A stretch of DNA of 64,000 nucleotides from Nosocomiicoccus ampullae (GTDB taxonomy: Bacteria > Bacillota > Bacilli > Staphylococcales > Salinicoccaceae). Where the stretch lies: assembly GCF_019357495.1 (NCBI RefSeq), contig NZ_CP079110.1:496001-560000 (forward strand), given 5' to 3'. The position numbers and the translations under genes are program-made. The notes beneath the pieces were generated by a model that was not told the origin of the DNA, made no database searches, and saw nothing but the letters and a program-made list of their open reading frames with translations. How positions within the stretch are numbered: position 1 is the stretch's first letter; every line of letters starts with the position of its first letter. Of this stretch, positions 42,228-57,383 are shown one piece after another.

Positions 42228-42264
42228 TATATAAATTAAAACTTTAAGAGCTAGGATGAAATTT

Positions 42265-43428
42265 ATGGAAATTACTTTACAAGATTACGAAACAATAAAA
42301 AAAGATTTAGAACATAATGCGATTGATATGTATAGAAATCCTGAACTTGGTGATGAAGAATATCGAGCGATGCGCTTATTAACGAGTGAATTAGAAAAGC
42401 ATGGCTTTATAATTGATACAAATATCGTCAATCGTCCAACAGCATTTATCGCAAGCTACGAAAGTGAAAAAGAAGGTCCGACAATTTGTTACCTCGCTGA
42501 ATACGACGCACTAAAAGGATTAGGACATGCGTGCGGTCATAATTTAATCGGTAATATGAGTGTCGGTGCTGGAATTTTACTTAGTAAACGAGTCGATGAA
42601 ACCGGTGGAAAAGTCGTCGTCGTTGGTACTCCTGCTGAAGAAACAAACGGCGCAAAAGTAACGATGGCAGAAGAAGGGATATTTGACGATATGGACGTAG
42701 CACTTATGGTGCACCCGTCAGACGTATCCTCTGAAAGCGGAGATATGCTTGCAATCGATCCATTACAATTTGACTTTTACGGAAAAGCAGCACACGCGGC
42801 AGGCAATCCTGAAGAAGGTATTAACGCACTAGACGGCGTCCTTCAACTATTTAACGGTATCAATCCGCTAAGAGAACATTTAAAAGACGACGTAAGAATC
42901 CACGGAATTATAATAAACGGTGGAGATGCAGCAAACATCGTCCCAGAACACGCAACGGCTCAGTTTTACATTCGTGCAAACGAAAGAGACTATTTAGATG
43001 AAGTCGTAGAAAAAATTAGAAACGTTGCAAAAGGTGCTGCATTAATGACAGGTACAGAAGTCGTTATATCAAACTACGAATTAAGCTACAACAACTTAAT
43101 ACCAAACGATACACTGTCAGAGCTTTTTACAAAACATCATAAGAAATTTACAGATCGACCAATCAATAAAAAAGAAAAATCAACAGGCAGCGCAGACATC
43201 GGAGACGTTTCACACCGAATCCCAGCACTCCATCCATATGTCGGCATGAACTGCCCCGGCGTAAAAGCACACACGCCAGAATTCAGAGAACAAACAATTT
43301 CAGAAGACGGCTTTAAAGCACTAGAAGAAGCGGTATTAGCACTATCAAATACAGGGTTAGAATTGCTAGAGAATAGAGAAGTGCTTGAAGCGGTGAAAAA
43401 AGAACAAGCAGAAAGACTTAAGAAATAA
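42265..43428 (+). CDS. M20-family amidohydrolase/peptidase (M20D type)
   Basis: This 387-residue zinc hydrolase of the AbgB/HipO-like M20D branch has YLAEYDALKGLGHACGHNLI with the metal-binding HACGHN, then GTPAEET and ALMVHPSD. A dimerisation domain (about residues 165-280) contains FYGKAAHAAGNPEEG. The ATG at 42265 lies eight bases after AGGA; the ATG nine bases earlier overlaps the AGGA and is less likely. It probably cleaves an N-acyl or aminoacyl amide imported by the upstream carrier. Its native terminator appears to have been split by an insertion. Confidence 0.9.
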   Translation: MEITLQDYETIKKDLEHNAIDMYRNPELGDEEYRAMRLLTSELEKHGFIIDTNIVNRPTAFIASYESEKEGPTICYLAEYDALKGLGHACGHNLIGNMSVGAGILLSKRVDETGGKVVVVGTPAEETNGAKVTMAEEGIFDDMDVALMVHPSDVSSESGDMLAIDPLQFDFYGKAAHAAGNPEEGINALDGVLQLFNGINPLREHLKDDVRIHGIIINGGDAANIVPEHATAQFYIRANERDYLDEVVEKIRNVAKGAALMTGTEVVISNYELSYNNLIPNDTLSELFTKHHKKFTDRPINKKEKSTGSADIGDVSHRIPALHPYVGMNCPGVKAHTPEFREQTISEDGFKALEEAVLALSNTGLELLENREVLEAVKKEQAERLKK

Positions 43429-43440
43429 TCGCACGCGAAA
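43425..43440. repeat. Left 16-bp direct repeat of the 5.4-kb inserted segment
   Basis: ATAATCGCACGCGAAA is identical to 48833-48848. Here it overlaps the M20 stop codon and holds only the left arm and loop of a hairpin (GCACGCGAAA); the right arm is missing. At the other copy the hairpin is complete and followed by T6. Confidence 0.9.
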
Positions 43441-43792
43441 TCGATATATTATCCAAAATTAGGATTGGTTTTTTGAAATAGGCTAATTTAAGGTATGTAT
43501 CTTGATTGCTTCAAGATACATACCTTAATTTTTTAATTTTAAAAAATCAACGTTACATTCTTACTATATTTTCTTTTTTAAGCTAAAGAACTGTTGGATA
43601 AAAGTGAGATAAATTAGATATTTGCAAGGTTGTATTATATAAATTATGTCAAATTCACTTGTATGAATGATAATTTTTATTCGTAAGCACTTGATTAATG
43701 TTAAATCTTGTTTAAATATTAATATATGGGAATTAATTATAAGCGTAATACTTACTAATTAATTTGAAATCACTTTAAAGAGGAGTATGTGT
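43441..43792. other. Intergenic region at the left edge of the insertion
   Basis: This 352-base stretch has no gene. It holds a very strong hairpin at 43488-43528 (annotated separately) and AT-rich sequence that presumably includes the promoter of the BCCT gene. AGAGGAG before 43793 is the BCCT ribosome site. Confidence 0.5.
43488..43535 (+). terminator. Strong hairpin with T tract at the left edge of the insertion
   Basis: A perfect 17-bp stem (43488-43504 with 43512-43528, core AAGGTATGTATCTTG) around a 7-nt loop is followed by TTTTTTAA. It is a functional-looking terminator although no gene of the inserted segment ends before it, so it may belong to a gene lost at the junction or stop read-through from the M20 gene. 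Confidence 0.85.
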
Positions 43793-45310
43793 ATGAATAA
43801 TAAAGCAAAAGTTGATGTGATGATATTTTGGCCATCAATAATCGTTCTTTCTGTGCTAACAGTATTATTAGTAATTTTTAGAGAATCTGCTGAAGGTATT
43901 TTAAATGCAATCATAAGAGGTGTGAACACTCGATTAGATTGGGTATTTGAGTTTATGACGTTTGGCCTATTTATTTTCTTACTATGGCTTATTTTTGGTA
44001 AGTATAAAAATGTAAAATTAGGACTAGGGGAAAGAGAATTTAGCAACTTCTCTTATGGTGCAATGCTGTTTTGTGCTGGTATGGGAACGAGTATTATGTT
44101 CTGGTCAATTATTGAACCGATGTATTATTTACAGGGACCACCGTTTGGAATAGAAGCTGAGACAGCTGAAGCGACTGAGTGGGCATTACCTTACGCAATG
44201 TTCCACTGGGGAATTTCAGCATGGTCGATTTATGCATTCCCATCGATTGTAATTGCATATTCATTTTTCAATAAACAGAATAAGTCATTAAAAGTCAGTC
44301 AATCAGTTAAGGGAGCTATAGGTAAGCATGCTGATGGCTGGTTAGGTAAAGTTATTGATATTTTAGTGATATGGAGTTTAGTTGGTGGTCTTGGAACATC
44401 TTTAGGGCTTGGGGTTCCTATGATATCAGCTGGTATTAGTCACATATTTGGCCTTGAAGAATCTATATTTTTAAGTATCATAATCATTGCAATCTGGACA
44501 GTTATATATCTAACGAGTGCATCATTAGGACTATATAAAGGTATTAAGAACTTAAGTAACTTTAACGTATATATAGCACTAGGTTTAGCAATATTTGTTA
44601 TCATTGTAGGACCAACTTCATTTATAATTACCTATTTTACAGATAGCTTTGGAATTATGGCTCAAAACTTCTTACGTATGAGTTTCTATACTGATGCAAT
44701 TAATGGAAGTTTATTCCCACAAGACTGGACTGTATTCTACTTTGCTTGGTTTGCAGCAACAGCCCCTTTTATGGGATTATTTATTGCTCGCATTTCTCAA
44801 GGTAGAACTCTTAAAAGTATGGCAATCAACATTCTTGGCTGGGGAAGTTTAGGTTCATGGATTTACTTTGCTGTCTTTGGAGGTTACACTATGAATCTCC
44901 AATTAACAGGTAAATTTGACGTTTTAGAAAGTATGGCAAAATATGGAGATGCTGCCACAGTAATAAACGTAATTAATACATTACCACTTGGATTCTTAGC
45001 AGTTGTATTTTTTGTTATTCTAGGGTTCATTTTCTTAGCAACTTCTTTAGACTCAGCTAGTTACGTTTTAGCATCAATAGCATCTAAAGATATTGATGAT
45101 AATAAAGAACCACCTCGATGGCACATAGTTCTATGGGGAATCATTATGGCTGGACTTTCAATTTCATTGTTATTAATTGGTGGACTATCTGTTGTACAAA
45201 CCTCAGCAGTCGTAGTGTCTGTACCTGTAGTAATTATTTACTCATTACTGTTTATTTCTATAATAAGATGGCTTAAAACAGATAAACATAATTATGAAGG
45301 AGAGGAATAA
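43793..45310 (+). CDS. BCCT family transporter (betaine/carnitine/choline type)
   Basis: This 505-residue transporter has 12 predicted membrane helices. BCCT signatures are the glycine-rich FCAGMGTSIMFWSIIEP (about 92-108), the tryptophan-rich WSLVGGLGTSLGLGVPMIS and WFAATAPFMGLFIARISQG. It lacks the long charged C-terminal osmosensing tail of BetP, so nutrient uptake is more likely than osmoprotection. The ATG at 43793 is seven bases after AGAGGAG; the ATG at 43787 is too close. The hydrolase starts two bases after its stop, so the two act together. Confidence 0.93.
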   Translation: MNNKAKVDVMIFWPSIIVLSVLTVLLVIFRESAEGILNAIIRGVNTRLDWVFEFMTFGLFIFLLWLIFGKYKNVKLGLGEREFSNFSYGAMLFCAGMGTSIMFWSIIEPMYYLQGPPFGIEAETAEATEWALPYAMFHWGISAWSIYAFPSIVIAYSFFNKQNKSLKVSQSVKGAIGKHADGWLGKVIDILVIWSLVGGLGTSLGLGVPMISAGISHIFGLEESIFLSIIIIAIWTVIYLTSASLGLYKGIKNLSNFNVYIALGLAIFVIIVGPTSFIITYFTDSFGIMAQNFLRMSFYTDAINGSLFPQDWTVFYFAWFAATAPFMGLFIARISQGRTLKSMAINILGWGSLGSWIYFAVFGGYTMNLQLTGKFDVLESMAKYGDAATVINVINTLPLGFLAVVFFVILGFIFLATSLDSASYVLASIASKDIDDNKEPPRWHIVLWGIIMAGLSISLLLIGGLSVVQTSAVVVSVPVVIIYSLLFISIIRWLKTDKHNYEGEE

Positions 45311-45312
45311 TA

Positions 45313-47310
45313 ATGGGAGTATTTGACGTTGATTATACAAAAATAACAGAAAGAACAGATTTTCCATTTGAGGTTGAGATTATTGAACACGAATGGATTA
45401 CGTTAAGTGATGGCGTGAAACTCTCTGCTAAATTATGGAAACCTATAACGCATGGTAAAACAAAAGGAGCGGTCCTTGAGTATTTACCTTATAGAAAAGA
45501 TGATTTCACAGCATTAAGAGATGAAATAAGACATAAGTATTTTGCAGGATTTGGTTATACGGCGATTCGTGTAGATATTAGGGGAACTGGTGATTCAGAA
45601 GGGATTATTTTAGACGAATATCCTAAACAAGAACAAGACGATGCACTTGAAGTGATAGATTGGATTACGTCACAGGATTGGTCTAATGGGTCAGTAGCTA
45701 TGATTGGTAAGTCTTGGGGAGGATTTAACGGATTACAGGTAGCTGCGAGACAACCAGAAGCATTAAAAACAATTATTAGCTTATGCTCAACAGATGATCG
45801 TTATGCAGACGATGTTCACTATAAAGGTGGGACGTTAATGGCGTCTGACATGTTATGGTGGGCCTCAACGATGTTTGCTTATAATACAAGGCCACCAATG
45901 AAACAGTTTGTTGGTGATAACTGGCGCGAAATGTGGTTAGATAGATTAGAAAACACACCACCTTTCGTCGTTGAGTGGGTAAAACATCAGACGAGAGATG
46001 ATTACTGGAAACATGGTTCAGTGTGTGAGAATTATGATGACATTAAGATTCCAGTCTTAACGATGAGTGGTTGGGCAGATGGATATACGAATCCAGTATT
46101 CCGTTTAATGGAAAAACTAAATGTTCCAAAGAAAGCAATGGTTGGACCTTGGGCACATGAGTTTCCAGACTTAGCAATTCCTGGGCCACAAATTGGATAT
46201 CTGCAAGAAGTCCTTGAATGGTTAGATAAATGGATGACTAAAGAAGACACTGAACACGAAGACGAATTCTTAGTATATGTTCAGGATAGTGTGAAGCCGT
46301 CAACAAGTTTTGAATATAGAGAAGGTAAGTGGATTGACTTCTTAAATTCTAAGACAGAAACTAAAGATTTACTAGAATCATTTAATGGGGAAGTTAACTT
46401 AAAGAACAATACCCATCATGGTCTCTATTCAGGAGTGTTTTGTCCATTTGGACAAGATGGAGATTTACCTGATGATCAAACAATTGATAATAGTTTAGCA
46501 ACAAGTATTTTAACTGACAAACTTGAAAATGATTTAGAAATAATTGGTCAACCGAATTTCAGTGTAAAAGTAAAATCAAAACAAGCCGAAGCTAACATTC
46601 ATGTTAGAATTTCTGATGTTCATCCAACAGGTGAGAAGACGTTAATTACTAAAGGACAGTTTAACTTAAACCACTTTAACTCTCATGAATTCCCTGAGAA
46701 TTTAGAGTTAGATAAATTTTATGAAGTTAATATACCTTTAGATGTTATCGGATATACTATTCCAAAAGGACACAAAATTGAAATTTCAATATCACCATCG
46801 TACTGGACTCAAGTATGGCCTTCTAAAGAGTTAGAAGAGCTGACAGTAGACCTAAGTGAATCTAAACTTATGATACCAATATTGAAAGAAGAAGTACTAA
46901 AAGAACCAAAATATAAAGATTCTGAAACAGCAGAACCACTTGAAAAGTTTGTACATCGTGAAGGTAAAAGAACAAGAGTAATTGAAAAAGAACTTACGAC
47001 TGGTGAATGGAAATTAAAAGATTTCTCAGATGAAGGATTGCGTAAATTGAAAATTAACGGAATCACATATGGAACTGAAAACTATAATACATTCACAATT
47101 AAAGAGAATGATCCACTATCAGCTCATGTTCAGTGTGATTGGAACGTTATTGTTAAAGACGATGATATTGATACTAAAGTAATTACTACAAGTTCTATGT
47201 ATTGTGACCTAGATTATTTCTACTTAGATAACTACTTAGAAGCATATGAAGATGATAAGCTTGTGTTTACAAAAGAATGGAACGATAAAATTAAACGTAA
47301 TTTTAGTTAA
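45313..47310 (+). CDS. CocE/NonD family hydrolase (S15-type)
   Basis: This 665-residue alpha/beta hydrolase has DIRGTGDSEG, the nucleophile elbow MIGKSWGGFNGLQ, the acid SGWADGYTNP and the His in VGPWAHEFPD, which together form the Ser-Asp-His triad. A C-terminal jelly-roll domain (about 360-560, X-Pro dipeptidyl-peptidase C-terminal type) follows. Family members hydrolyse esters or N-acyl amides. Coupling to a BCCT transporter suggests cleavage of an ester of a quaternary amine such as an acylcarnitine or acylcholine, an inference. No signal peptide is seen. Confidence 0.9.
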   Translation: MGVFDVDYTKITERTDFPFEVEIIEHEWITLSDGVKLSAKLWKPITHGKTKGAVLEYLPYRKDDFTALRDEIRHKYFAGFGYTAIRVDIRGTGDSEGIILDEYPKQEQDDALEVIDWITSQDWSNGSVAMIGKSWGGFNGLQVAARQPEALKTIISLCSTDDRYADDVHYKGGTLMASDMLWWASTMFAYNTRPPMKQFVGDNWREMWLDRLENTPPFVVEWVKHQTRDDYWKHGSVCENYDDIKIPVLTMSGWADGYTNPVFRLMEKLNVPKKAMVGPWAHEFPDLAIPGPQIGYLQEVLEWLDKWMTKEDTEHEDEFLVYVQDSVKPSTSFEYREGKWIDFLNSKTETKDLLESFNGEVNLKNNTHHGLYSGVFCPFGQDGDLPDDQTIDNSLATSILTDKLENDLEIIGQPNFSVKVKSKQAEANIHVRISDVHPTGEKTLITKGQFNLNHFNSHEFPENLELDKFYEVNIPLDVIGYTIPKGHKIEISISPSYWTQVWPSKELEELTVDLSESKLMIPILKEEVLKEPKYKDSETAEPLEKFVHREGKRTRVIEKELTTGEWKLKDFSDEGLRKLKINGITYGTENYNTFTIKENDPLSAHVQCDWNVIVKDDDIDTKVITTSSMYCDLDYFYLDNYLEAYEDDKLVFTKEWNDKIKRNFS

Positions 47311-47339
47311 TAAAAGGCGTGTTAGATTTATTGCACTAA

Positions 47340-47369
47340 CCCCCTAAATCCGGACACGGATTTAGGGGG
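47340..47369 (+). promoter_or_regulatory. Hairpin at the IS left end that captures the orfA SD
   Basis: CCCCCTAAATCCG (47340-47352) pairs perfectly over 13 bp with CGGATTTAGGGGG (47357-47369) around GACA. The G5 at the end of the right arm is the only ribosome site for the orfA ATG at 47378. Transcripts that enter from outside would fold and hide it. Confidence 0.7.
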
Positions 47370-47377
47370 TTATTCGT

Positions 47378-47934
47378 ATGTCAAAGTATAGTTATGATTT
47401 GAAGTTAGAAATTATAAGAAGATATGAAGAAGGTTTTGGAGCAATCATTCTTTCAAAAGAGTTTAATATAAGCCATGACACGATCAACAATTGGATAATG
47501 GCTTATAATCTCTATGGCGAAGTTGGTTTAAAGAAAAGTTTATCTAAAACACGTTATTCTGGTGAGTTTAAGTTATCCGTATTAAAATATAGGATAAATA
47601 ACGAAACTTCAGGATAAATAACGAAACTTCCTATTCAGAAACAGCTCAAGTCTTTGGGATCAAGAATCCATCTACAATAGCTGGTTGGCAGCGAAAGTAT
47701 GATTTGGAAGGCTATAGCGGCTTATGTGGTACTTTAGGAAGACCTAGAAAACGTGAGGGAACGACTATGCCTAAGAATAACCATGAACCAAAAAAACTAT
47801 CAAAGTCTGAAAGAGAAGAACTTATTGAACTAAGAGAAAGAAATGAGTACCTTGAAGCAAAACTGCTTTACCAAAAAAAGTTGGATGCCTTGCTTCGGGA
47901 AAAGCGTGCTCAAACAAAGAAAAGACGCAAGTAG
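47378..47934 (+). pseudogene. IS3-family OrfA, frameshifted by a 20-bp tandem duplication
   Basis: The frame starts MSKYSYDLKLEIIRRYEEG, an IS3-type OrfA with helix-turn-helix (AIILSKEFNISHDTINNW), and stops at 47617. The bases 47591-47610 are repeated exactly at 47611-47630. Removing one copy restores a 178-residue OrfA that runs through YSETAQVFGIKNPSTIAGWQ and a coiled-coil end (ELIELRERNEYLEAKLLYQK) to the stop at 47934. Transposition should be impaired unless the duplication is lost. Confidence 0.9.
47591..47630 (+). repeat. Perfect 20-bp tandem duplication inside orfA
   Basis: AGGATAAATAACGAAACTTC occurs twice head to tail. As 20 is not a multiple of 3 it shifts the frame. Slipped-strand loss of one copy would restore orfA. 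Confidence 0.97.
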
Positions 47935-48791
47935 TACTAGAAGTAAGGCAAATTAAAACAGAAGTTAAACTGAATACTTGGTTAGAGATTTCTGAGTTAC
48001 CAAGATCTTCATTTTATGAATGGAAAGAAAAATTAAATCAGGTAAATGAATCTGAGCAGCGATTAGTTCAACAAATACAATCCATCATTCAAGAATCTAG
48101 ATTTACTTACGGCTATAGAAGAGTTGTACTCGCACTGAAGAATCTAGGTATTATTGTGAACCATAAAAGAGTGCTCAGACTTATGAAGAAGTACAATTTA
48201 TTGTGTACGAAATTCACAACAAGAAGTAGAAAGTATAGTTCGTATAAAGGTGAAGTTGGAAAAATTGCAGATAATGAGCTAAACAGAGCATTTAACGTAG
48301 ATCAGATGAATGAAGTTTATGTCAGTGATGTAACTGAGTTCAAAGTGGACAACTCAGATGTAAAAGTGTATCTCTCACCCATTATGGACTTATATAATAG
48401 TGAGATTGTGTCATTCAGTATCTCTACATCACCTACAGTAAAATTTACTTGTGAGTCCCTAGAGAAAGCTATTAAGAAGCTGCCTATAGAGCATAATCTC
48501 ATGATTCATACAGATCAAGGGTTTCATTATCAGCATGTCAAATGGACACAATTACTAGGTCAGAATAATATCAAGCAGAGTATGTCTAGACGTGGAAATT
48601 GTTTAGATAATTCACCTATGGAGAATTTCTTTAGTTTGCTTAAACAAGAAATCTATTACGGTGTTAAATATCAAAGTGTTCAAGAATTAATCGAGGCATT
48701 AGAAGAATATATTGATTGGTACAACAACAAAAGAATAAAAGAGAAATTAAATGGCCTGTCTCCTGTTCAATACAGGAAACAAGCCATATAA
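47880..48791 (+). CDS. IS3-family OrfB transposase (DDE), made by -1 frameshift
   Basis: This frame, -1 to the end of orfA, has no good start codon near its beginning and would be fused to OrfA by slippage on A AAA AAG (47874-47880: CAA AAA AAG read in orfA). It carries the IS3 HTH_21 region (FTYGYRRVVLALKNLG) and the rve integrase core, with catalytic Asp in YVSDVTEFK, Asp in IHTDQGFHYQ and Glu in NSPMENFFS. It appears intact; an internal ATG at 48156 gives only a 211-residue C-terminal piece. Confidence 0.88.
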   Translation, partial: VGCLASGKACSNKEKTQVVLEVRQIKTEVKLNTWLEISELPRSSFYEWKEKLNQVNESEQRLVQQIQSIIQESRFTYGYRRVVLALKNLGIIVNHKRVLRLMKKYNLLCTKFTTRSRKYSSYKGEVGKIADNELNRAFNVDQMNEVYVSDVTEFKVDNSDVKVYLSPIMDLYNSEIVSFSISTSPTVKFTCESLEKAIKKLPIEHNLMIHTDQGFHYQHVKWTQLLGQNNIKQSMSRRGNCLDNSPMENFFSLLKQEIYYGVKYQSVQELIEALEEYIDWYNNKRIKEKLNGLSPVQYRKQAI

Positions 48792-48832
48792 GAATTCACG
48801 GACAAGAATGTCCGGATTTATGGGTTCGGTAC

Positions 48833-48848
48833 ATAATCGCACGCGAAA
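48833..48848. repeat. Right 16-bp direct repeat of the inserted segment
   Basis: Identical to 43425-43440. Its first base is also the last base of the IS right inverted repeat, so the host copy may be 15 bp (TAATCGCACGCGAAA). Confidence 0.9.
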
Positions 48849-48861
48849 CGCGTGCTTTTTT
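48839..48861 (+). terminator. Complete rho-independent terminator, probably the original M20 terminator
   Basis: GCACGCG (48839-48845) pairs with CGCGTGC (48849-48855) around AAA, followed by T6. The half of this structure left behind the M20 gene at 43431-43440 shows that both were once contiguous. Confidence 0.93.
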
Positions 48862-48921: not shown

Positions 48922-51900
48922 ATGTCATATGAACGTTTTGATAATGACTCAATTATCCATGAAGCGATGGAAGAATATAAAACAACATCTAAATATTTAC
49001 TGAATAAAAAGTTACTAAGTAATCGAGCATCGATTGAATATTTTCATAATAAACATGAAGCAAAAACAGAAGATGAAATTCAGCAATTTAAAAATAACAC
49101 TCATTATTCTGTCAAAGATTTAGTGAGTTATATGAATGAAAGAGTATCTGGAGAGTTAAAAACTTTTCCGCTTGCATTATCACTATATGGAAATGAATAT
49201 CTAGATGCTTATAAGTATGAATTGACTGATGATTTTCAATTAATGGAAAGTAAATTAATAGTGAATGATCATTCGACAGGTGATTTTTTACTTAACCATT
49301 TAAAAAATGAATTATTAACATGTTCAAGCTTTGACATTATTGTAAGTTTTGTGAGAGGCTCTGGACTTAATCTACTCATAAATACACTAGATTTACTCCG
49401 AGAATATAATATTAAAGGGCGCATTATTACAACGACTTATATGAATGTCACAGAACCAGCGGCAATGCGTGTATTAAATAGTTATGAAAATATAGAATTA
49501 AAAGTGTATGAAAGTAGTAATCCAAAAGATAGTTTTCATACAAAGGGTTATATATTTCATAGAGACAATAACTATGGTTCGGTAATTATTGGTTCATCTA
49601 ACATATCTGAAGCTGCACTTAAAACAGGTGAAGAGTGGAACGTTAGAACTTATGAACGTGCAAGTGACTCAATATATGACAATATGTCGACGCGCTTTGA
49701 AAGACTATGGAATCATGATAATACAGTAGAAGCAACAGATGCATATATTAATAAGTACGCACACTTTTTAGAAACAAAAAATATTTTAACACCTATAAAA
49801 TCATCATTTAATAGTAAGTTAGAATCTAGAGATCAATCAAAAGAGATTATACCAAACTCTATGCAGATGACGGCGATTAAAAATATGCTTGAATCTATTA
49901 ATGAAGGTTATAAAAGAGGTCTCGCGATCGCAGCAACCGGCACTGGAAAAACATTTTTGTCTGCAATGTGTGCAAAAGAATTAAATCCTAAAAATGTTTT
50001 ATTCATTGCCCATCGTATTGAATTATTAAATGGTGCGAAAGAAACTTTTAAAACGATATTTAAAAATGACAGTGAAGACAATTTCAAAATTTATAAAGGA
50101 AGTAAAAGAGAAGTAGCGAAATTTACATTTGCTTCTATTCAAACATTAATTAATGACTATGAAAAATTTAACCCGAATGATTTTGATTTAATCGTCATTG
50201 ACGAATTCCATCATGGAACGTCCCCCACATATAAAGCAATTATTGATCACTTTACACCGAACTTTTTATTAGGACTAACTGCAACACCAGACCGTACAGA
50301 TGGTGGAAATATTTATGAACTATCAGATTATAATATTATTGTTGATGTAAGACTTCAGCACGCGCTAGAAAGTGAGTTGCTCGTACCGTTTCAATATTAC
50401 GGTATTAGTGATCGCACGATTGATTTAGCTGGAAAAGATGATATTAACGAAAATGAACTCGTAAAGATTTTAAATACAAATCGACGTGTAGATTTCATCG
50501 TTGAAAAGATGAATCAATACATACTAACAGATACGAGAAAATGTTTAGCATTTTGCCAAAATATTGAGCATGCAGAATATATGAATACTGAATTTCAAAA
50601 AAGAGGATTTTACTCAACAGTTCTAACAGGAAAAGATAATGACAATACACGTTCACAAGTGATTAAAAAGTTAGAAGATGACAATCATCCATTAGAAATT
50701 ATATTTATCGTTGATTTATTTAACGAAGGTGTCGATATTCCTAAAGTAAATTTAATTCTATTTTTACGTCCGACTGAATCTGCGATTATATTTACACAAC
50801 AACTCGGTCGTGGACTACGTAAAGCTGAAGATAAAGAATATTTAACAGTGCTCGATTTCGTTACTAATAGTAGAAATAATTACCTCATTCCTATCGCATT
50901 AAACGGTAACAAAGAATTTATTGATAAACAAAAGCTTAAAAATAGCGTTAAAAAGAACTTCGTAAACTTATCAAATTCTATTCATATCGAGCTCGATCAT
51001 ATTTCTAAAGAACGAATTTTACAAAGTATCGATACAACAGACTTTATGAAAGCAGAGTTCATTCAAAAAGATGCAAGGCAATTTTTAGAAGTGATACGAT
51101 TAGAAACTAAAAATGACGAAAAGAAACTATCTATCATGGACTTTTATAGTCATGAGCAAGCACCGTCATTATCTAGATTATTTAAAGGTACTTATAAAAA
51201 TTTATCGATATTAAATAAAAGAATAAAAGCAGAACGAGAAGTCGACAAAGAAATTAATGAGTCGAAACAATTAACATTTATAATGGATCAAATTATGAAA
51301 GCTATACCAGTGAAAGTTCTATATGATCCAATAATATTTATATTAATTTTATTAAATAAAAAATTAAAAGAAAGAGAAGTCATTCACTTCCTTGAAGATA
51401 AGTTAAAAGTAAAACTTAATAATCAGGCAAAAGAAAAGATTCATTATGCATTTGTAAGAACGTCAAAAATTAACTATAAAAAGAAGAGATTCTTCAATTA
51501 TGAAGACGGAGTTTTAAATTCAAAATACGAGTTATCTAATAATGTTCAAAAAGAACTTAAAGAGTTTCTAGAATTTATACAATTGAGTTATAGACAAAAT
51601 TATCCCGAGAATAATTTAAATTATCAAAATGAATTATTATTATACGAACAATATTCAAGAAGTGAAACCCTTGCATTAATTGGTTATGACAAAGATATCA
51701 ACTCACTACGTGAAGGTGTACTACAATATAAAGGCGATCATTACTTATTCGTAAACTTAGATAAAAACGAAAAAACGGTAGAAGAGCATCTACTATACGA
51801 TGATTATTTTATATCTCAATATAAATTTCATTGGCAATCACAAAATCAAACACATGAAAATACGCCAACCGGACAACAATATATCCACCATAAAAAGAAT

Positions 51901-52077
51901 GATAATAAAATACATCTATTCGTACGACGAGAAAACAGTGAAGACAAACTCACTCTACCATTTTATTATCTCGGCGAAGTAGAATACGAATCACATGAAG
52001 GTGGAAAACCAATGTCGATTATATGGAACTTTAAACAACCAGTTCCAAAAGACGTTATGGATGATTTAGAAAGTTAA
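48922..52077 (+). CDS. PLD-nuclease / SF2 helicase / DUF3427 protein
   Basis: The 1051-residue protein has three parts. An N-terminal phospholipase-D-like nuclease domain (about 105-280) carries one HKD-type motif, HTKGYIFHRDNNYGSVIIGSSN (near 205), written here to show His, Lys and the later Gly-Ser-Asn. An SF2 helicase core (about 310-660) has ATGTGKT, VIDEFHHG, GLTATPDR and QQLGRGLRKAEDK. A C-terminal DUF3427-like region (about 880-1045) includes YEQYSRSETLALIGYD and FYYLGEVEYESHEGGKPM. Similar multidomain helicases occur near restriction and defence genes. It has its own terminator before the next gene, so it is a separate transcript. Likely a DNA-cleaving or remodelling effector. Confidence 0.86.
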   Translation: MSYERFDNDSIIHEAMEEYKTTSKYLLNKKLLSNRASIEYFHNKHEAKTEDEIQQFKNNTHYSVKDLVSYMNERVSGELKTFPLALSLYGNEYLDAYKYELTDDFQLMESKLIVNDHSTGDFLLNHLKNELLTCSSFDIIVSFVRGSGLNLLINTLDLLREYNIKGRIITTTYMNVTEPAAMRVLNSYENIELKVYESSNPKDSFHTKGYIFHRDNNYGSVIIGSSNISEAALKTGEEWNVRTYERASDSIYDNMSTRFERLWNHDNTVEATDAYINKYAHFLETKNILTPIKSSFNSKLESRDQSKEIIPNSMQMTAIKNMLESINEGYKRGLAIAATGTGKTFLSAMCAKELNPKNVLFIAHRIELLNGAKETFKTIFKNDSEDNFKIYKGSKREVAKFTFASIQTLINDYEKFNPNDFDLIVIDEFHHGTSPTYKAIIDHFTPNFLLGLTATPDRTDGGNIYELSDYNIIVDVRLQHALESELLVPFQYYGISDRTIDLAGKDDINENELVKILNTNRRVDFIVEKMNQYILTDTRKCLAFCQNIEHAEYMNTEFQKRGFYSTVLTGKDNDNTRSQVIKKLEDDNHPLEIIFIVDLFNEGVDIPKVNLILFLRPTESAIIFTQQLGRGLRKAEDKEYLTVLDFVTNSRNNYLIPIALNGNKEFIDKQKLKNSVKKNFVNLSNSIHIELDHISKERILQSIDTTDFMKAEFIQKDARQFLEVIRLETKNDEKKLSIMDFYSHEQAPSLSRLFKGTYKNLSILNKRIKAEREVDKEINESKQLTFIMDQIMKAIPVKVLYDPIIFILILLNKKLKEREVIHFLEDKLKVKLNNQAKEKIHYAFVRTSKINYKKKRFFNYEDGVLNSKYELSNNVQKELKEFLEFIQLSYRQNYPENNLNYQNELLLYEQYSRSETLALIGYDKDINSLREGVLQYKGDHYLFVNLDKNEKTVEEHLLYDDYFISQYKFHWQSQNQTHENTPTGQQYIHHKKNDNKIHLFVRRENSEDKLTLPFYYLGEVEYESHEGGKPMSIIWNFKQPVPKDVMDDLES

Positions 52078-52083
52078 TTTGAA

Positions 52084-52112
52084 GAAGTCTCCTTAAAAGA
52101 GGCTTCTTTTTT
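52084..52112 (+). terminator. Rho-independent terminator after the PLD-helicase gene
   Basis: GAAGTCTC (52084-52091) pairs with GAGGCTTC (52099-52106), with one wobble, then T6. Confidence 0.85.
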
Positions 52113-52206
52113 GTTTAAAACTTCAAGATCTTTACTAAAAATTTAAAGTGTGATCTAATTTATATAAGTGAAATATCGTTTTCATTAGTATTAGTAGAGG
52201 TGTAGT

Positions 52207-54117
52207 ATGAGTAAAGCATTTCAATTTGCAAAAATAAGTCAACTTGAGCAATATAACTTCGATAACTCTTTAGAAGGGTTTAGAAGAAATGGTGTTGAAG
52301 GGACTATTAAAGAAAATTTACAAAACTCGCTAGATGCGAGATTACATAAAGATTTCGAAAAACCAGTAGTTGTAACAATTAGGAATACTAATGTTAGAAA
52401 AAGCGACTTACCAGGAATTGAGGAGTTATTTGAACATATTTACTCAATGGAAGGACAAAATGAATACACAAAAGAAACTGTTGAGTTTATGCAGAGTAAG
52501 TATGAATTAGAGACTATTCCAGTTATTTCTTTTGAAGATGAAAATACTAAGGGTCTTACTGGGGCAAATAATGGTCAGACTGATAATCCTGAGGATACGT
52601 ACGGTATTTATGCATATAAAAAAGGATTCCACTCAGTATCTAAAGATAAAGATCATGAAATCACACGTGGTGGATCGCATGGTATTGGTAAGATTGCAAA
52701 TAACGCAGCTTCAGAAATTCATTTAATGTATTTTGCGAATTGTGACGCAGAAAATAACCAGCATTTAGGTGGTTCGGTTCATTTAATTGAACATGAATAT
52801 AATGGTCAAGGCTATCGTTCAACAGGTTATTATACGGATGTTATGGAAGATAATGGTAATAAGAAATTCATACCATTTAAAAACTTAAATAATCATAAAG
52901 TATTTAATAAAGATACACGTGGCTTAAAGATTATTATTCCATATGTAAGAGAAGAATTAGCGAATAAAAATAATATTATAAAAGCAATCTGTGATAACTA
53001 TTTTTTAGCTATTTTAGATCAGAAGCTTATTGTAAATTATTATGACGAAGAAAATGAATTAACTGTGATTGATCATGAAAACTTAGAAAATCTAGTGAAT
53101 AATCCAGAGATTTATGAAGTAGACTACGAAGAAATAAGAGAACATTTTACTCCGATATATGTAGATACATATTTAAATGAACAAAAGCATAGTATCACAG
53201 TTGACAGTAGAGACGAGAGTTATAACTTTGATATTTACTTTAAATATGATGAATCGATTCGCACCGGACGACTTGCGATATTAAGAACAATTGGTATGAA
53301 GATAGAAGATTTCAAAGTAAAAGGTAACGTTAGAAAACCATTTAATGCGATTTTAATTGGTGGTATGAAAGAAGATAATTACTTGAAATCATTAGAAAAC
53401 GAATCACATACAGCTATTTCTGCAGAAGATATACGTGATAAAGAAGAAAATAGAAATGCAGTTCGTTTTATAAACAACTTAAACAAAAAGATGGCCGAAC
53501 TTATTAATGAATATTTTGAAAAAGCCAACCCTACTGAAGGGGAATTAGACACAGGTGACATCTTATTTACAACAGAATCAAACTTCACATCAAAACTTAA
53601 AGATATCGGTAATAAAGTTTCATTATCAAAAGGTGAAGAAATCACAAAAACTCCAAGTCAAAAAGAAAAACGAGGAAAAGGAAACAAAACCGGAACAACT
53701 TCAAAAAAACAAAGACAAGTAACAAGAACTCCGATAAAGAAAAATACTAATAAAACCAGTGAATATGTTAACTATTCAACACCAACAAACTTAGTTGATA
53801 GAATTGACATTGGTCGAAAAGAAATTGTTCAAATTGATCTTACAGAATTTATTAACAGCAACATGATTAAAGATGATCATATAAATCTAAAACTCTTTGT
53901 GATTGATGGTGAAGGTAAGACAGAATCTAATACGATAAGATTAACAGATATTTATAATTCAATTGAAGATTTAGATAATCACTCAAATTATATTATCGAA
54001 AATAATGTAATTAAAAATATTAAAATCAATAATAATAGAGTTCATTTAGGATTTAATAAATATAATAATGAAATTAACAATTTAAAATTTGAATATGTAT
54101 TGGAGGTATTGAAGTGA
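52207..54117 (+). CDS. GHKL (histidine-kinase-like) ATPase, MORC/MutL/Hsp90-like, putative defence
   Basis: This 636-residue protein has the Bergerat ATP fold: N-box KENLQNSLDAR (about 35-45, with Glu and Asn), a G1 box FEDENTKGL (about 109) and a G2 box RGGSHGIGKIANNA (about 154-167) followed by IHLMYFAN. A middle domain of the S5/transducer kind may follow. A lysine- and threonine-rich linker (about 480-520) leads to a C-terminal beta-rich domain of about 115 residues. There is no histidine-kinase phosphoacceptor region. Such ATPases occur in MORC-type restriction systems. It overlaps the next gene by four bases, so it forms a tight operon. Confidence 0.82.
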   Translation: MSKAFQFAKISQLEQYNFDNSLEGFRRNGVEGTIKENLQNSLDARLHKDFEKPVVVTIRNTNVRKSDLPGIEELFEHIYSMEGQNEYTKETVEFMQSKYELETIPVISFEDENTKGLTGANNGQTDNPEDTYGIYAYKKGFHSVSKDKDHEITRGGSHGIGKIANNAASEIHLMYFANCDAENNQHLGGSVHLIEHEYNGQGYRSTGYYTDVMEDNGNKKFIPFKNLNNHKVFNKDTRGLKIIIPYVREELANKNNIIKAICDNYFLAILDQKLIVNYYDEENELTVIDHENLENLVNNPEIYEVDYEEIREHFTPIYVDTYLNEQKHSITVDSRDESYNFDIYFKYDESIRTGRLAILRTIGMKIEDFKVKGNVRKPFNAILIGGMKEDNYLKSLENESHTAISAEDIRDKEENRNAVRFINNLNKKMAELINEYFEKANPTEGELDTGDILFTTESNFTSKLKDIGNKVSLSKGEEITKTPSQKEKRGKGNKTGTTSKKQRQVTRTPIKKNTNKTSEYVNYSTPTNLVDRIDIGRKEIVQIDLTEFINSNMIKDDHINLKLFVIDGEGKTESNTIRLTDIYNSIEDLDNHSNYIIENNVIKNIKINNNRVHLGFNKYNNEINNLKFEYVLEVLK

Positions 54118-54962
54118 TTTTCTCAAGAGATTCGATATTTCCATATCCTGTAATGACGAATGATGGAACAAGCTATAAAAACAACTTATTTGAGTTTGAA
54201 ATTGAAGATTTATTCGATACAGAAACTGAGTACACCTTCAAAATTAAATACGAACTTGGAAGTTCATTTTTAAAAGAGAAACTTAAAGAAGGTTATGCTG
54301 AGCTCGTATTTGTTATAAATTCCCAAGATAGTTATTTTAAAAAATTAGATTATGATGAAGAAACAGTTACGATTCCTAAAAGTAGGTTAACGCTTTTAAG
54401 TCGAACGAAAATTCAACTACAAATTCGTGCACTAAACACACTTTACTTTGCAAATAATAATGATCTACATAATTTTTATAATGATTATAAGACAGATATT
54501 GTTGTTCAAAGAAACTCAATATTAGGCTATAGCAATATTGAAGAATTTAAAGGATCACAAACGAATCCATTTACATTATTTGAAACAGCGGTTAATTCTA
54601 ATCAAGAAGAACTATTTAAAGCTGATATAAGGGAGAATATTATAGTTCTCTCATTTAAAGATAGTAAATATCTATTAAATCAGTATAGTAGTGAACTTAA
54701 AAATATGTTTATATACACAGGACTTAGTAGAGCTCTTGTAGAATTTTTAAATTATAATGCACATGGTGATGAGGCAATTGATTTATACGAGTTAAATGAT
54801 ACCAATTCTGCATTAGACTCTAAGCTTTACGAATTAATGTTAAATAAAGGGATCACTGAACTTTCATATAGCAATATAGATTATGTAATATCAAAAATAT
54901 CTTATAAAATTATTGAAAGTTTTGTTGACTCAATTGAGAGGTTGAGTAGCCATGAGGATTAA
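54114..54962 (+). CDS. Unrecognised protein of the GHKL cassette
   Basis: This 282-residue protein starts with GTG (overlap GTGA with the GHKL gene) after GGAGG. It begins MIFSRDSIFPYPVMTNDGTS and seems beta-rich in the first 120 residues (FEFEIEDLF, YTFKIKYELG, IQLQIRALN) and helical in the rest. I recognise no catalytic motif, signal peptide or membrane helix. The tight coupling suggests a subunit or adaptor of the GHKL ATPase. The 3' end contains the ribosome site and start of the next gene. Confidence 0.75.
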   Translation: MIFSRDSIFPYPVMTNDGTSYKNNLFEFEIEDLFDTETEYTFKIKYELGSSFLKEKLKEGYAELVFVINSQDSYFKKLDYDEETVTIPKSRLTLLSRTKIQLQIRALNTLYFANNNDLHNFYNDYKTDIVVQRNSILGYSNIEEFKGSQTNPFTLFETAVNSNQEELFKADIRENIIVLSFKDSKYLLNQYSSELKNMFIYTGLSRALVEFLNYNAHGDEAIDLYELNDTNSALDSKLYELMLNKGITELSYSNIDYVISKISYKIIESFVDSIERLSSHED

Positions 54963-55682
54963 GCTTTTAAAAAAGGTTATTTTAATGATGAAGAATCAAA
55001 GCAACAAATTTATACGGACTTTCTAAATGGTGAAATCGAAGTATCTAAAGATTATTTCTCTGAAGACAGTGTAAATATCGATGAACCATTTGAATTTCCA
55101 ATATACCTCGCGAACGCCCCTGTAGAAGATTTTGTAAAAGCAATTACTGTTTTAAGAAAAAATATGGTACATACAGAGCGCTCAATACATTTAGATAGAA
55201 GGTTTTGGCATTCATACTTAATACAAGTGATGAGAAATTATATTTTGGATCATTATCCTCAAATCAAAGAAAGTTTAAAAGAATTTAATAATATAGTTTT
55301 TAAGAAGTTTGACTGGGAAAACTATATTTATAAATGTATGATTGCTGCTGAATATATTGAAAATAGTGGTCTAACTTCAGAAGAAGAAAAAATTAGAATG
55401 AGTGAGATTATTTTTGAGAATTTAGACTTATATAACTATCTCATCAAATATAATATTTTTAGAAATAAGCAATTTATATTAAATTTACTTATGATTATTG
55501 ATGAAGAAGGACTATCTGAAGAATTAAAAAAGAAAGTTGAAAATGAAGCAGGTAAAGACCTAAGACTGAGTCGTATGATCGTATATGAGATGAACAAACG
55601 TTATCCAGTCGTTATGTATCCGCTTCTTGATAAAGAAGAATTAAGAGATGAACTTTATAATATGAAAAAGATTTATAGTTAA
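54952..55682 (+). pseudogene. Unrecognised cassette gene, out of frame at an A6 tract (phase-variable or broken)
   Basis: The ATG at 54952, ten bases after GAGAGG and overlapping the previous stop, opens MRIKLLKKVILMM and stops after 24 codons. A well-formed reading frame without a start begins right behind it (AFKKGYFNDEESKQQIYTDF) and runs to 55682. With one more A in the A6 tract at 54969-54974 the two join as MRIKLLKKGYFNDEESKQQI, a 243-residue protein. The alternative, starting at the internal ATG 55164, gives 172 residues but lacks a clear Shine-Dalgarno. The product is helical and acidic at its start (VNIDEPFEFPIYLANAPVED); no family recognised. Confidence 0.75.
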
Positions 55683-55694
55683 AGGATGTAAAAT

Positions 55695-57383
55695 ATGGCA
55701 ATTATAAACTCACAGTTTTCAGGCATAGGAACAGTTTTACAAAGTAGTTTTTCTGTACCTGAATATCAAAGAGGTTACTCCTGGGAGAAGGATCAAGTAG
55801 ATGACTTTTGGTCAGATTTTATTCAATTATATGAAGATGATGATTTAAATGAACACTTTTTAGGACAGGTAGTTATTCATAAAGAGGGTAATAAAACTAG
55901 AAATATCATTGATGGACAACAGAGAATTACAACTTCATTAATATTTTTAGATGCATTTAGAACAAAAGCACTTGAATTTCTTAATTCCACAAAAAATGTA
56001 AAAGCTGTGGAATATGCTAGAGAGATTGTTCAGGAAGTTAATGTTAACCACTTAAAAAATAGTACGTTCAAAAAAGAAGTCAAATTAAGACTCGGAGAAG
56101 CAGATGATGATTTCTTCCAAAAATATATTGTTCCAGAAATGGGTTATAAAAAAGAAATCGTTATTAAAGATTTATCTAGCTCTGAAAAGTTGATCTATAA
56201 TTCTAGTAGCTACCTAAATAAGCAATTAGAAGAATATTTAAATCAATTCAATGAAGATGTAGAAAAAGCAAATCATCTATATGATATGTTCGATGAATTT
56301 TTAAAAAATATGATTGTGATGTATGTAGAAACAAATAGTTTAAATGAAGCATTTATTATATTTGAAAGTTTAAATGCTCGTGGAAAAGATTTAGAAACAT
56401 CAGATTTATTAAAAAATCACCTCTTTAGAGTAGGACAAAATAGAATTGAAGAAGTAAAATCTAATTGGTCAAAAATGGCATTAGATTTAGATGGTATAGA
56501 TTTAACAGCATACATTAGGTATCTTTGGAATGCTGAGAATCATTTTGTTACTAGAAATAAACTATATATGAATATTCGTTCAAAAGTAAATACAGTAGAA
56601 GATAGTGTAAATTTAAGTGAGAAATTATTAGAGCTTTCACGGTTATACAGAGCTTTAGTATTGCCTGAAGAAGAGAATTATTTTAATAAACCAATTACTG
56701 AGACACTTATAAAACTTCATGAACTAAATGCAAAAACTTACTATCCGATAATTATAGCAATGAAATTAAAAAAATATGAAGATGATGATATTGGAAAAGT
56801 ACTAAAAGCGATTGAAGTGTTATTAGTTAGAAATGTTGTCGTTGGTGGTATGACAGCAAATACTCTTGAAAAGGAATTTGCTAAAATAGCACTAAAAATA
56901 TCTAAATCTGAACTCAAAAATGCTGAAAATATTGTGGCTGAACTAAAGAAACTTACACTTTCAGATGATGAATTTAAAGCGAATTTCGAAACATTTACAG
57001 TGAGAAGACCTCAAACAGTTCGTTACTTATTAAGAGAATTAGAAAACTTTGAAGAACGTGAGATTAGAGTTAATGAAGATAATATGAAAGTTCATATTGA
57101 ACACATCATGCCGAAATCGCCAAAAAAGAATGATTGGGGTATTATTAAAGAAGATCATGAGCAATATTTACAAAGATTAGGTAACCTTACATTACTGGGT
57201 GATGAGAAAAATCAGAGTGCATCAAACGCAAAGTTTGACCGCAAAAAAGAAATTTACTCTGAATCTAAAATCTCCATGACGCAAGAGCTGACTAAAAATA
57301 AAACATGGACTATAAAAGATATTGAAAGACGTCAAAAAGATTTAGCTAATAAAGCTATAAAAGTTTGGCCTAAAAACTCTTAA
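55695..57383 (+). CDS. DUF262-DUF1524 protein (GmrSD-like restriction endonuclease)
   Basis: This 562-residue protein has an N-terminal DUF262 ParB-like NTPase domain with FSVPEYQRGYSWEKDQVDDF and the signature NIIDGQQRITT (about 70-80). Its C-terminal DUF1524 HNH nuclease domain has VHIEHIMPKSP (His residues near 467), RLGNLTLLG and a final NAKFDRKKEIY. GmrS and GmrD fused in one chain are type IV enzymes that cut modified (glucosylated hydroxymethylcytosine) phage DNA; related SspE and BrxU act with other systems. It starts 12 bases after the previous gene with AAAGGATG, so it belongs to the same operon. Confidence 0.9.
   Translation: MAIINSQFSGIGTVLQSSFSVPEYQRGYSWEKDQVDDFWSDFIQLYEDDDLNEHFLGQVVIHKEGNKTRNIIDGQQRITTSLIFLDAFRTKALEFLNSTKNVKAVEYAREIVQEVNVNHLKNSTFKKEVKLRLGEADDDFFQKYIVPEMGYKKEIVIKDLSSSEKLIYNSSSYLNKQLEEYLNQFNEDVEKANHLYDMFDEFLKNMIVMYVETNSLNEAFIIFESLNARGKDLETSDLLKNHLFRVGQNRIEEVKSNWSKMALDLDGIDLTAYIRYLWNAENHFVTRNKLYMNIRSKVNTVEDSVNLSEKLLELSRLYRALVLPEEENYFNKPITETLIKLHELNAKTYYPIIIAMKLKKYEDDDIGKVLKAIEVLLVRNVVVGGMTANTLEKEFAKIALKISKSELKNAENIVAELKKLTLSDDEFKANFETFTVRRPQTVRYLLRELENFEEREIRVNEDNMKVHIEHIMPKSPKKNDWGIIKEDHEQYLQRLGNLTLLGDEKNQSASNAKFDRKKEIYSESKISMTQELTKNKTWTIKDIERRQKDLANKAIKVWPKNS

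Follow-up and report, generated by a model that had tools for sequence, protein, structure and literature searches.

A BCCT-CocE gene pair between the outward right ends of two different IS3-family elements in a split terminator of Nosocomiicoccus ampullae

Introduction

IS1397 and ISKpn1 are IS3-family elements that insert at REP or palindromic units (PMC1525189), and they resemble the two insertion sequences (ISs) described here, N1 and N2, in combining an IS3-family transposase with insertion into intergenic palindromes (PMC1525189). Their targets belong to one repeat family, whereas those of N1 and N2 are intrinsic terminators of unrelated sequence. IS1272, an IS1182-family element of staphylococci, targets inverted repeats irrespective of sequence (PMC5678879), a property that N1 and N2 share; however, IS1272 replaces the stem-loop without leaving a duplication, whereas N1 and N2 leave both halves of the hairpin in place and duplicate 3 bp. 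ISEnfa3, an IS3-family element of Enterococcus, has similar ends and is approximately 69% identical to N1 at the DNA level in its 3' part. Like N1 and N2, it was found in hairpins at both of the distinct sites that were read, on Enterococcus plasmids, with target-site duplications TAA and TTG. These two distinct sites are the only ones read, one of the hairpins is weak, and no cargo was found with ISEnfa3, unlike the segment analyzed below. The paper on ISSau2, an IS150-group element of S. aureus, makes no mention of terminators. A search of openly accessible literature returned no paper on terminator targeting by the IS3 clade to which these elements belong. N1 and N2 combine IS3 chemistry with general terminator hairpins as targets.

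The DNA studied here, referred to as the window, is a stretch of 64,000 nucleotides from Nosocomiicoccus ampullae, in which a 5.4-kb segment separates a gene for an M20-family amidohydrolase from a gene for a PLD-helicase. The segment resembles composite transposons in that cargo lies between IS ends and was inserted as a block. It differs from them in that its ends come from two different ISs, one N2-like and reduced to a remnant and the other N1, and in that the flanking repeat is 15 bp long instead of the 3 bp usual for these ISs.

Results

The segment is bounded by a 16-bp direct repeat, ATAATCGCACGCGAAA, with copies at 43425-43440 and 48833-48848, as the first-pass annotation of this DNA had reported. 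A search of the 1.55-Mb genome that tolerated up to 2 mismatches revealed no further copy; shuffles of the window give 0.01 expected chance matches, and a 12-mer is common to only 13 of 20,000 random pairs of 60-bp windows. In agreement with the same annotation, the right copy lies within the intact hairpin GCACGCG-AAA-CGCGTGC-TTTTTT (48839-48861, forward strand), a complete intrinsic terminator that its fold and an equivalent hairpin in N. massiliensis identify as the ancestral terminator of the M20 gene, while the left copy holds only the 5' arm and the loop of that terminator. The M20 gene itself (42256-43428, forward strand; Pfam M20_dimer and Peptidase_M20) ends within the repeat. The left copy had been placed immediately after the M20 stop codon; it does adjoin the end of the gene, but the stop codon TAA constitutes the first three bases of the 15-bp repeat and does not precede it.

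The length of the repeat also requires adjustment. The A at 48833, the 16th base of the repeat, is the terminal base of N1, and since all five N1 copies end in GGTACA, the host-derived repeat amounts to 15 bp (TAATCGCACGCGAAA). Its left copy (43426-43440, forward strand) contains the M20 stop codon together with the 5' arm and the loop of the terminator, and its right copy (48834-48848, forward strand) abuts the IS right end directly. The repeat proposed as a duplication of 15-16 bp exists, but its host part is 15 bp and need not represent a single target-site duplication.

An empty site was found in N. massiliensis (G002), where the M20 stop codon is followed by the complete terminator and then by the PLD-helicase gene; the repeat is present there only once. 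BLAST matches of this genome to the window end at 43440 and start again at 48833, overlapping by exactly 16 bases; identity between the two species is 79-90% across the region and 89% at the DNA level for the M20 gene. The comparison provides a clean single site in one relative, N. massiliensis. Because the repeat is single there, insertion in the lineage of the window is far more likely than precise loss from the other lineage. In the third Nosocomiicoccus genome (G001), which is 86% complete, neither the M20 nor the helicase region was found, so this genome is uninformative about the site. This empty site bears out the view that the segment was inserted into the M20 terminator, and the left joint does lie in the loop, where entry had been proposed.

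The right end of the segment is formed by N1, an IS3-family element at 47332-48833 (forward strand; TGCACT...GGTACA). Its OrfB is an IS3-family transposase (NCBIfam NF033516, transpos_IS3, E=6e-72, above the cut-off), and its terminal inverted repeats, TG...CA, are IS3-type ends. Four further full copies, each of 1482 bp, are present in the genome; all have the same TGCACT...GGTACA ends and 3-bp duplications, so that the flanking repeat is indeed, as had been argued, too long for a normal IS3 duplication. The copy in the window has no matching 3-bp duplication, as it is preceded by TAT and followed by TAA. Intact N1 copies carry two consecutive open reading frames, a possible orfA/orfB arrangement with programmed frameshift; in the window copy orfA is frameshifted by a 20-bp tandem duplication (47591-47610, forward strand), which is absent from the four other genomic copies and from the N1 of N. 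massiliensis, and this copy is probably inactive. A mosaic test on the window N1 revealed no clear breakpoint between two parents. At its left end, a perfect 16-bp inverted repeat (47337-47372) precedes orfA directly and may keep outside transcription from reading into the element. In another genome (L105:355-405, G006), two N1-type left ends stand alone as an inverted pair that folds into a single hairpin and carries no transposase, possibly a miniature element.

At the left end, approximately 130 bp joined to the terminator loop (43441-43570, reverse strand) constitute the decayed 3' end of an N2-like IS3-family element, with its right inverted repeat (IRR) facing outward. Aligned with the 3' ends of the four full N2 copies of the genome (L016-L019), this stretch is identical at 91 of 135 alignment columns (67%) and reaches a Smith-Waterman score of 86, whereas none of 300 shuffled sequences scored above 61. 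The alignment starts no more than 2 bases from both the segment boundary and the IS terminus, so the left boundary is an IS end as well. A position weight matrix of IS ends placed this boundary at a rank fraction of 0.004, which is weaker than the direct alignment, and a 17/26 identity to the N2 right end was selected post hoc over 16 candidate ends, so the shuffle-tested alignment was used instead. Assignment of the left end to N1 itself was rejected, the scores of 27 and 18 not being significant; the match is to the sister IS N2. No transposase gene lies between 43441 and 43786, and the left element is thus a remnant and not an IS. Both ends of the segment are therefore right ends of IS3-family elements facing outward, N2-like on the left and N1 on the right. 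The first-pass annotation had not recognized the left IS end, and its picture of cargo and a passenger IS moved by some other element is not supported. A second old N2-like 3' end remnant is present in the same genome at approximately 1,495,700 (L032:1470-1600).

The contents between these ends had been given as a BCCT transporter, a CocE hydrolase and an IS, and Pfam and NCBIfam matches agree. The cargo consists of a BCCT-family transporter gene (43787-45310, forward strand; Pfam BCCT, E=2.5e-148; TIGR00842) and a gene for a CocE/NonD-family (S15) hydrolase (45313-47310, forward strand; Pfam Peptidase_S15 and PepX_C; TIGR00976). The two genes are adjacent in at least 9 genomes of the order, with 67-74% protein identity, and form an ordinary gene pair in relatives; a quaternary-amine-type transporter paired with an esterase-like hydrolase might import an ester or amide of such a compound and then cleave it. 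In the comparison of the gene pair itself, no copy was found together with an integrase. A close donor was not found either, the best match within the order having approximately 70% DNA identity; plasmid matches to the pair were partial only, and the left non-coding part of the segment had no plasmid match.

The M20 gene has lost the 3' arm of its own terminator and has gained a hairpin from the IS remnant. This strong hairpin, followed by a T-rich stretch (43488-43534; predicted fold -25.5 kcal/mol), could serve as a replacement terminator, so that termination is probably preserved on both sides, by the remnant hairpin after M20 and by the original terminator before the helicase gene. To the left of N1, the sequence AAAAGGCGTGTTAGATTTAT (47311-47331, forward strand) is a putative 5' arm of a CocE terminator cut by the IS, whose other half is absent here; this assignment is plausible because several relatives have a terminator approximately 20-60 bp after CocE. 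To the right of the insertion, positions 48922-57383 hold a candidate defence cluster, in which the PLD-helicase matches PADLOC mREase_IV, a GmrSD-type protein matches HEC-06, and PDC-M33A/B candidates are present.

Every other full N1 or N2 copy examined (four of each, 8/8) lies in a terminator hairpin with a 3-bp duplication. When the flanks are rejoined, these sites form hairpins of the terminator type, all perfect or nearly so and with stem lengths of 11-16 bp; the duplications (AAA, GAT, ACG, GAC, TCT, TAC, ATT and AAA) fall in the hairpin loop except for one, which lies in the adjoining stem. Three of the N2 copies are 99.5-100% identical in the pairs compared, and one is approximately 97% identical. 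Hairpins of this kind cover 8.1% of intergenic positions and 1.0% of all positions in the window, and on the intergenic background the chance of eight such sites is approximately 2e-9, a figure that is itself approximate, being based on 64 kb of the same genome and on our own hairpin rule. The N1 copy of N. massiliensis, reconstructed from the ends of two contigs, is likewise inserted in a long hairpin. Of 18 related copies in other Staphylococcaceae, 8 pass the same strict rule (P ~4e-5), the failures including unfound ends and rearranged flanks as well as true absence of a hairpin, and their duplications are 3-4 bp where readable. The preference in these other Staphylococcaceae is real but not absolute. 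Since the targets are intrinsic terminators of unrelated sequence, it seems to be the hairpin structure, and not the sequence, that N1 and N2 recognize.

In a further genome (G069, L132:283-7693), a related IS3 element is present in two direct copies, and between them lie genes for an ArsR-type regulator, a CadA-like P-type ATPase and a resolvase. This unit lies in a terminator with an ordinary CGG duplication and outer flanks aaaccccacgtCGG and CGGccaacgtggggttt, and its inner flanks each supply one half of a different hairpin. With its metal ATPase gene, the arrangement offers a precedent for IS-borne cargo entering a terminator.

Discussion

The left joint of the segment lies in the loop of the M20 hairpin, and the right joint is displaced from it by 12 bases in the 5' direction, to the foot of that hairpin. 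The loop is the usual insertion place for these ISs, which makes the left joint ordinary. The 15 bp would then probably represent the interval separating two distinct IS joints within the same hairpin and not the product of one staggered cut. In the explanation that we favor, to which we assign about an even chance, the segment is a pseudo-composite element, with BCCT-CocE held between the outward right ends of two different IS3-family elements, and it arose when two alleles recombined through N1, the 15-bp repeat being most likely a by-product of terminator-seeking ISs. An N2-like IS would have entered the loop of the M20 terminator in one lineage, and BCCT-CocE, with N1 in the CocE terminator, would have accumulated or arrived beside it. 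In another lineage, a second N1 copy would have entered the same M20 terminator at the 5' foot, at TAA. Homologous recombination between the two N1 copies would finally have produced the present arrangement, with its left half taken from one allele and its right half from the second. Under this scheme, the N1 flanks TAT and TAA differ because they come from different insertions. However, two independent IS insertions in one terminator are needed, which counts against it; neither parental allele was found in any genome, the window N1 is not clearly a mosaic of two parents, and the 5' foot lies outside the stem, whereas the other genomic N1 copies sit in the loop or the adjoining stem.

A shorter account invokes a single aberrant transposition, which we regard as possible but less probable than recombination between two insertions. 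Here, a transposase would have paired the N2-like and N1 right ends and inserted the complete 5.4-kb segment into a hairpin in extruded form. Joining would have taken place at the loop on one strand and at the 5' foot on its partner, and repair would have duplicated the 15 bp from foot to loop. One event would account for the two joints, for the empty site being single and for the IS end lying directly against the repeat. The hairpin scheme proposed for IS1272, in which strand transfer at the 5' foot duplicates the stem-loop and transfer at the loop duplicates the loop only (PMC5678879), makes it physically reasonable, since a mixed event would give the 15-bp product. Against this stand the 3-bp duplications at all eight sister insertions, the 3-4 bp of relatives where readable, and the ordinary CGG duplication of the composite precedent in G069; moreover, N2-type and N1 right ends differ considerably, which makes their shared use by one transposase uncertain. 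Recombination between two insertions is tentatively preferred.

A two-step origin appears improbable. It would have BCCT-CocE entering by an unspecified mechanism that left the 15-bp repeat, followed by insertion of N1 at the right boundary with a TAA duplication whose left copy later mutated to TAT. The two flanking triplets differ at only one base, and the joined flanks GGCGTGTTAGATTTAATCGCACGC contain, by visual reading, the partly complementary arms GCGTG/CACGC, although the predicted fold favors the ordinary terminator hairpin. However, this origin calls for a single-base coincidence between N1 and the boundary, a mutated duplication and a separate integration, and the extra integration is unnecessary since the left end is already an IS end. 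Least credible of all is that an integrase-driven island with an attachment core of 15-16 bp left this segment behind. The repeat length is typical of such cores, and there is one empty site. However, each copy of the repeat directly adjoins an IS end with no spacer, the repeat occupies the stop codon and terminator of a protein gene, open reading frames and family searches of the segment revealed no integrase gene between the repeats, as had been noted at first, and two IS ends together with terminator targeting make a lost integrase unnecessary.

A broader proposition, which we consider rather unlikely, is that an IS3 clade of Staphylococcaceae and Enterococcus recognizes the terminator hairpin, probably in extruded form, and joins its ends at the loop and the 5' foot, thereby giving duplications of approximately 15 bp set by structure and bringing chromosomal gene pairs into terminators as units with heterologous ends. 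Long repeats generated by recombination between two insertions could be mistaken for integrase activity. If terminator targeting is general in the clade, it would explain how these elements spread without breaking genes, and terminators would act as landing sites for foreign operons.
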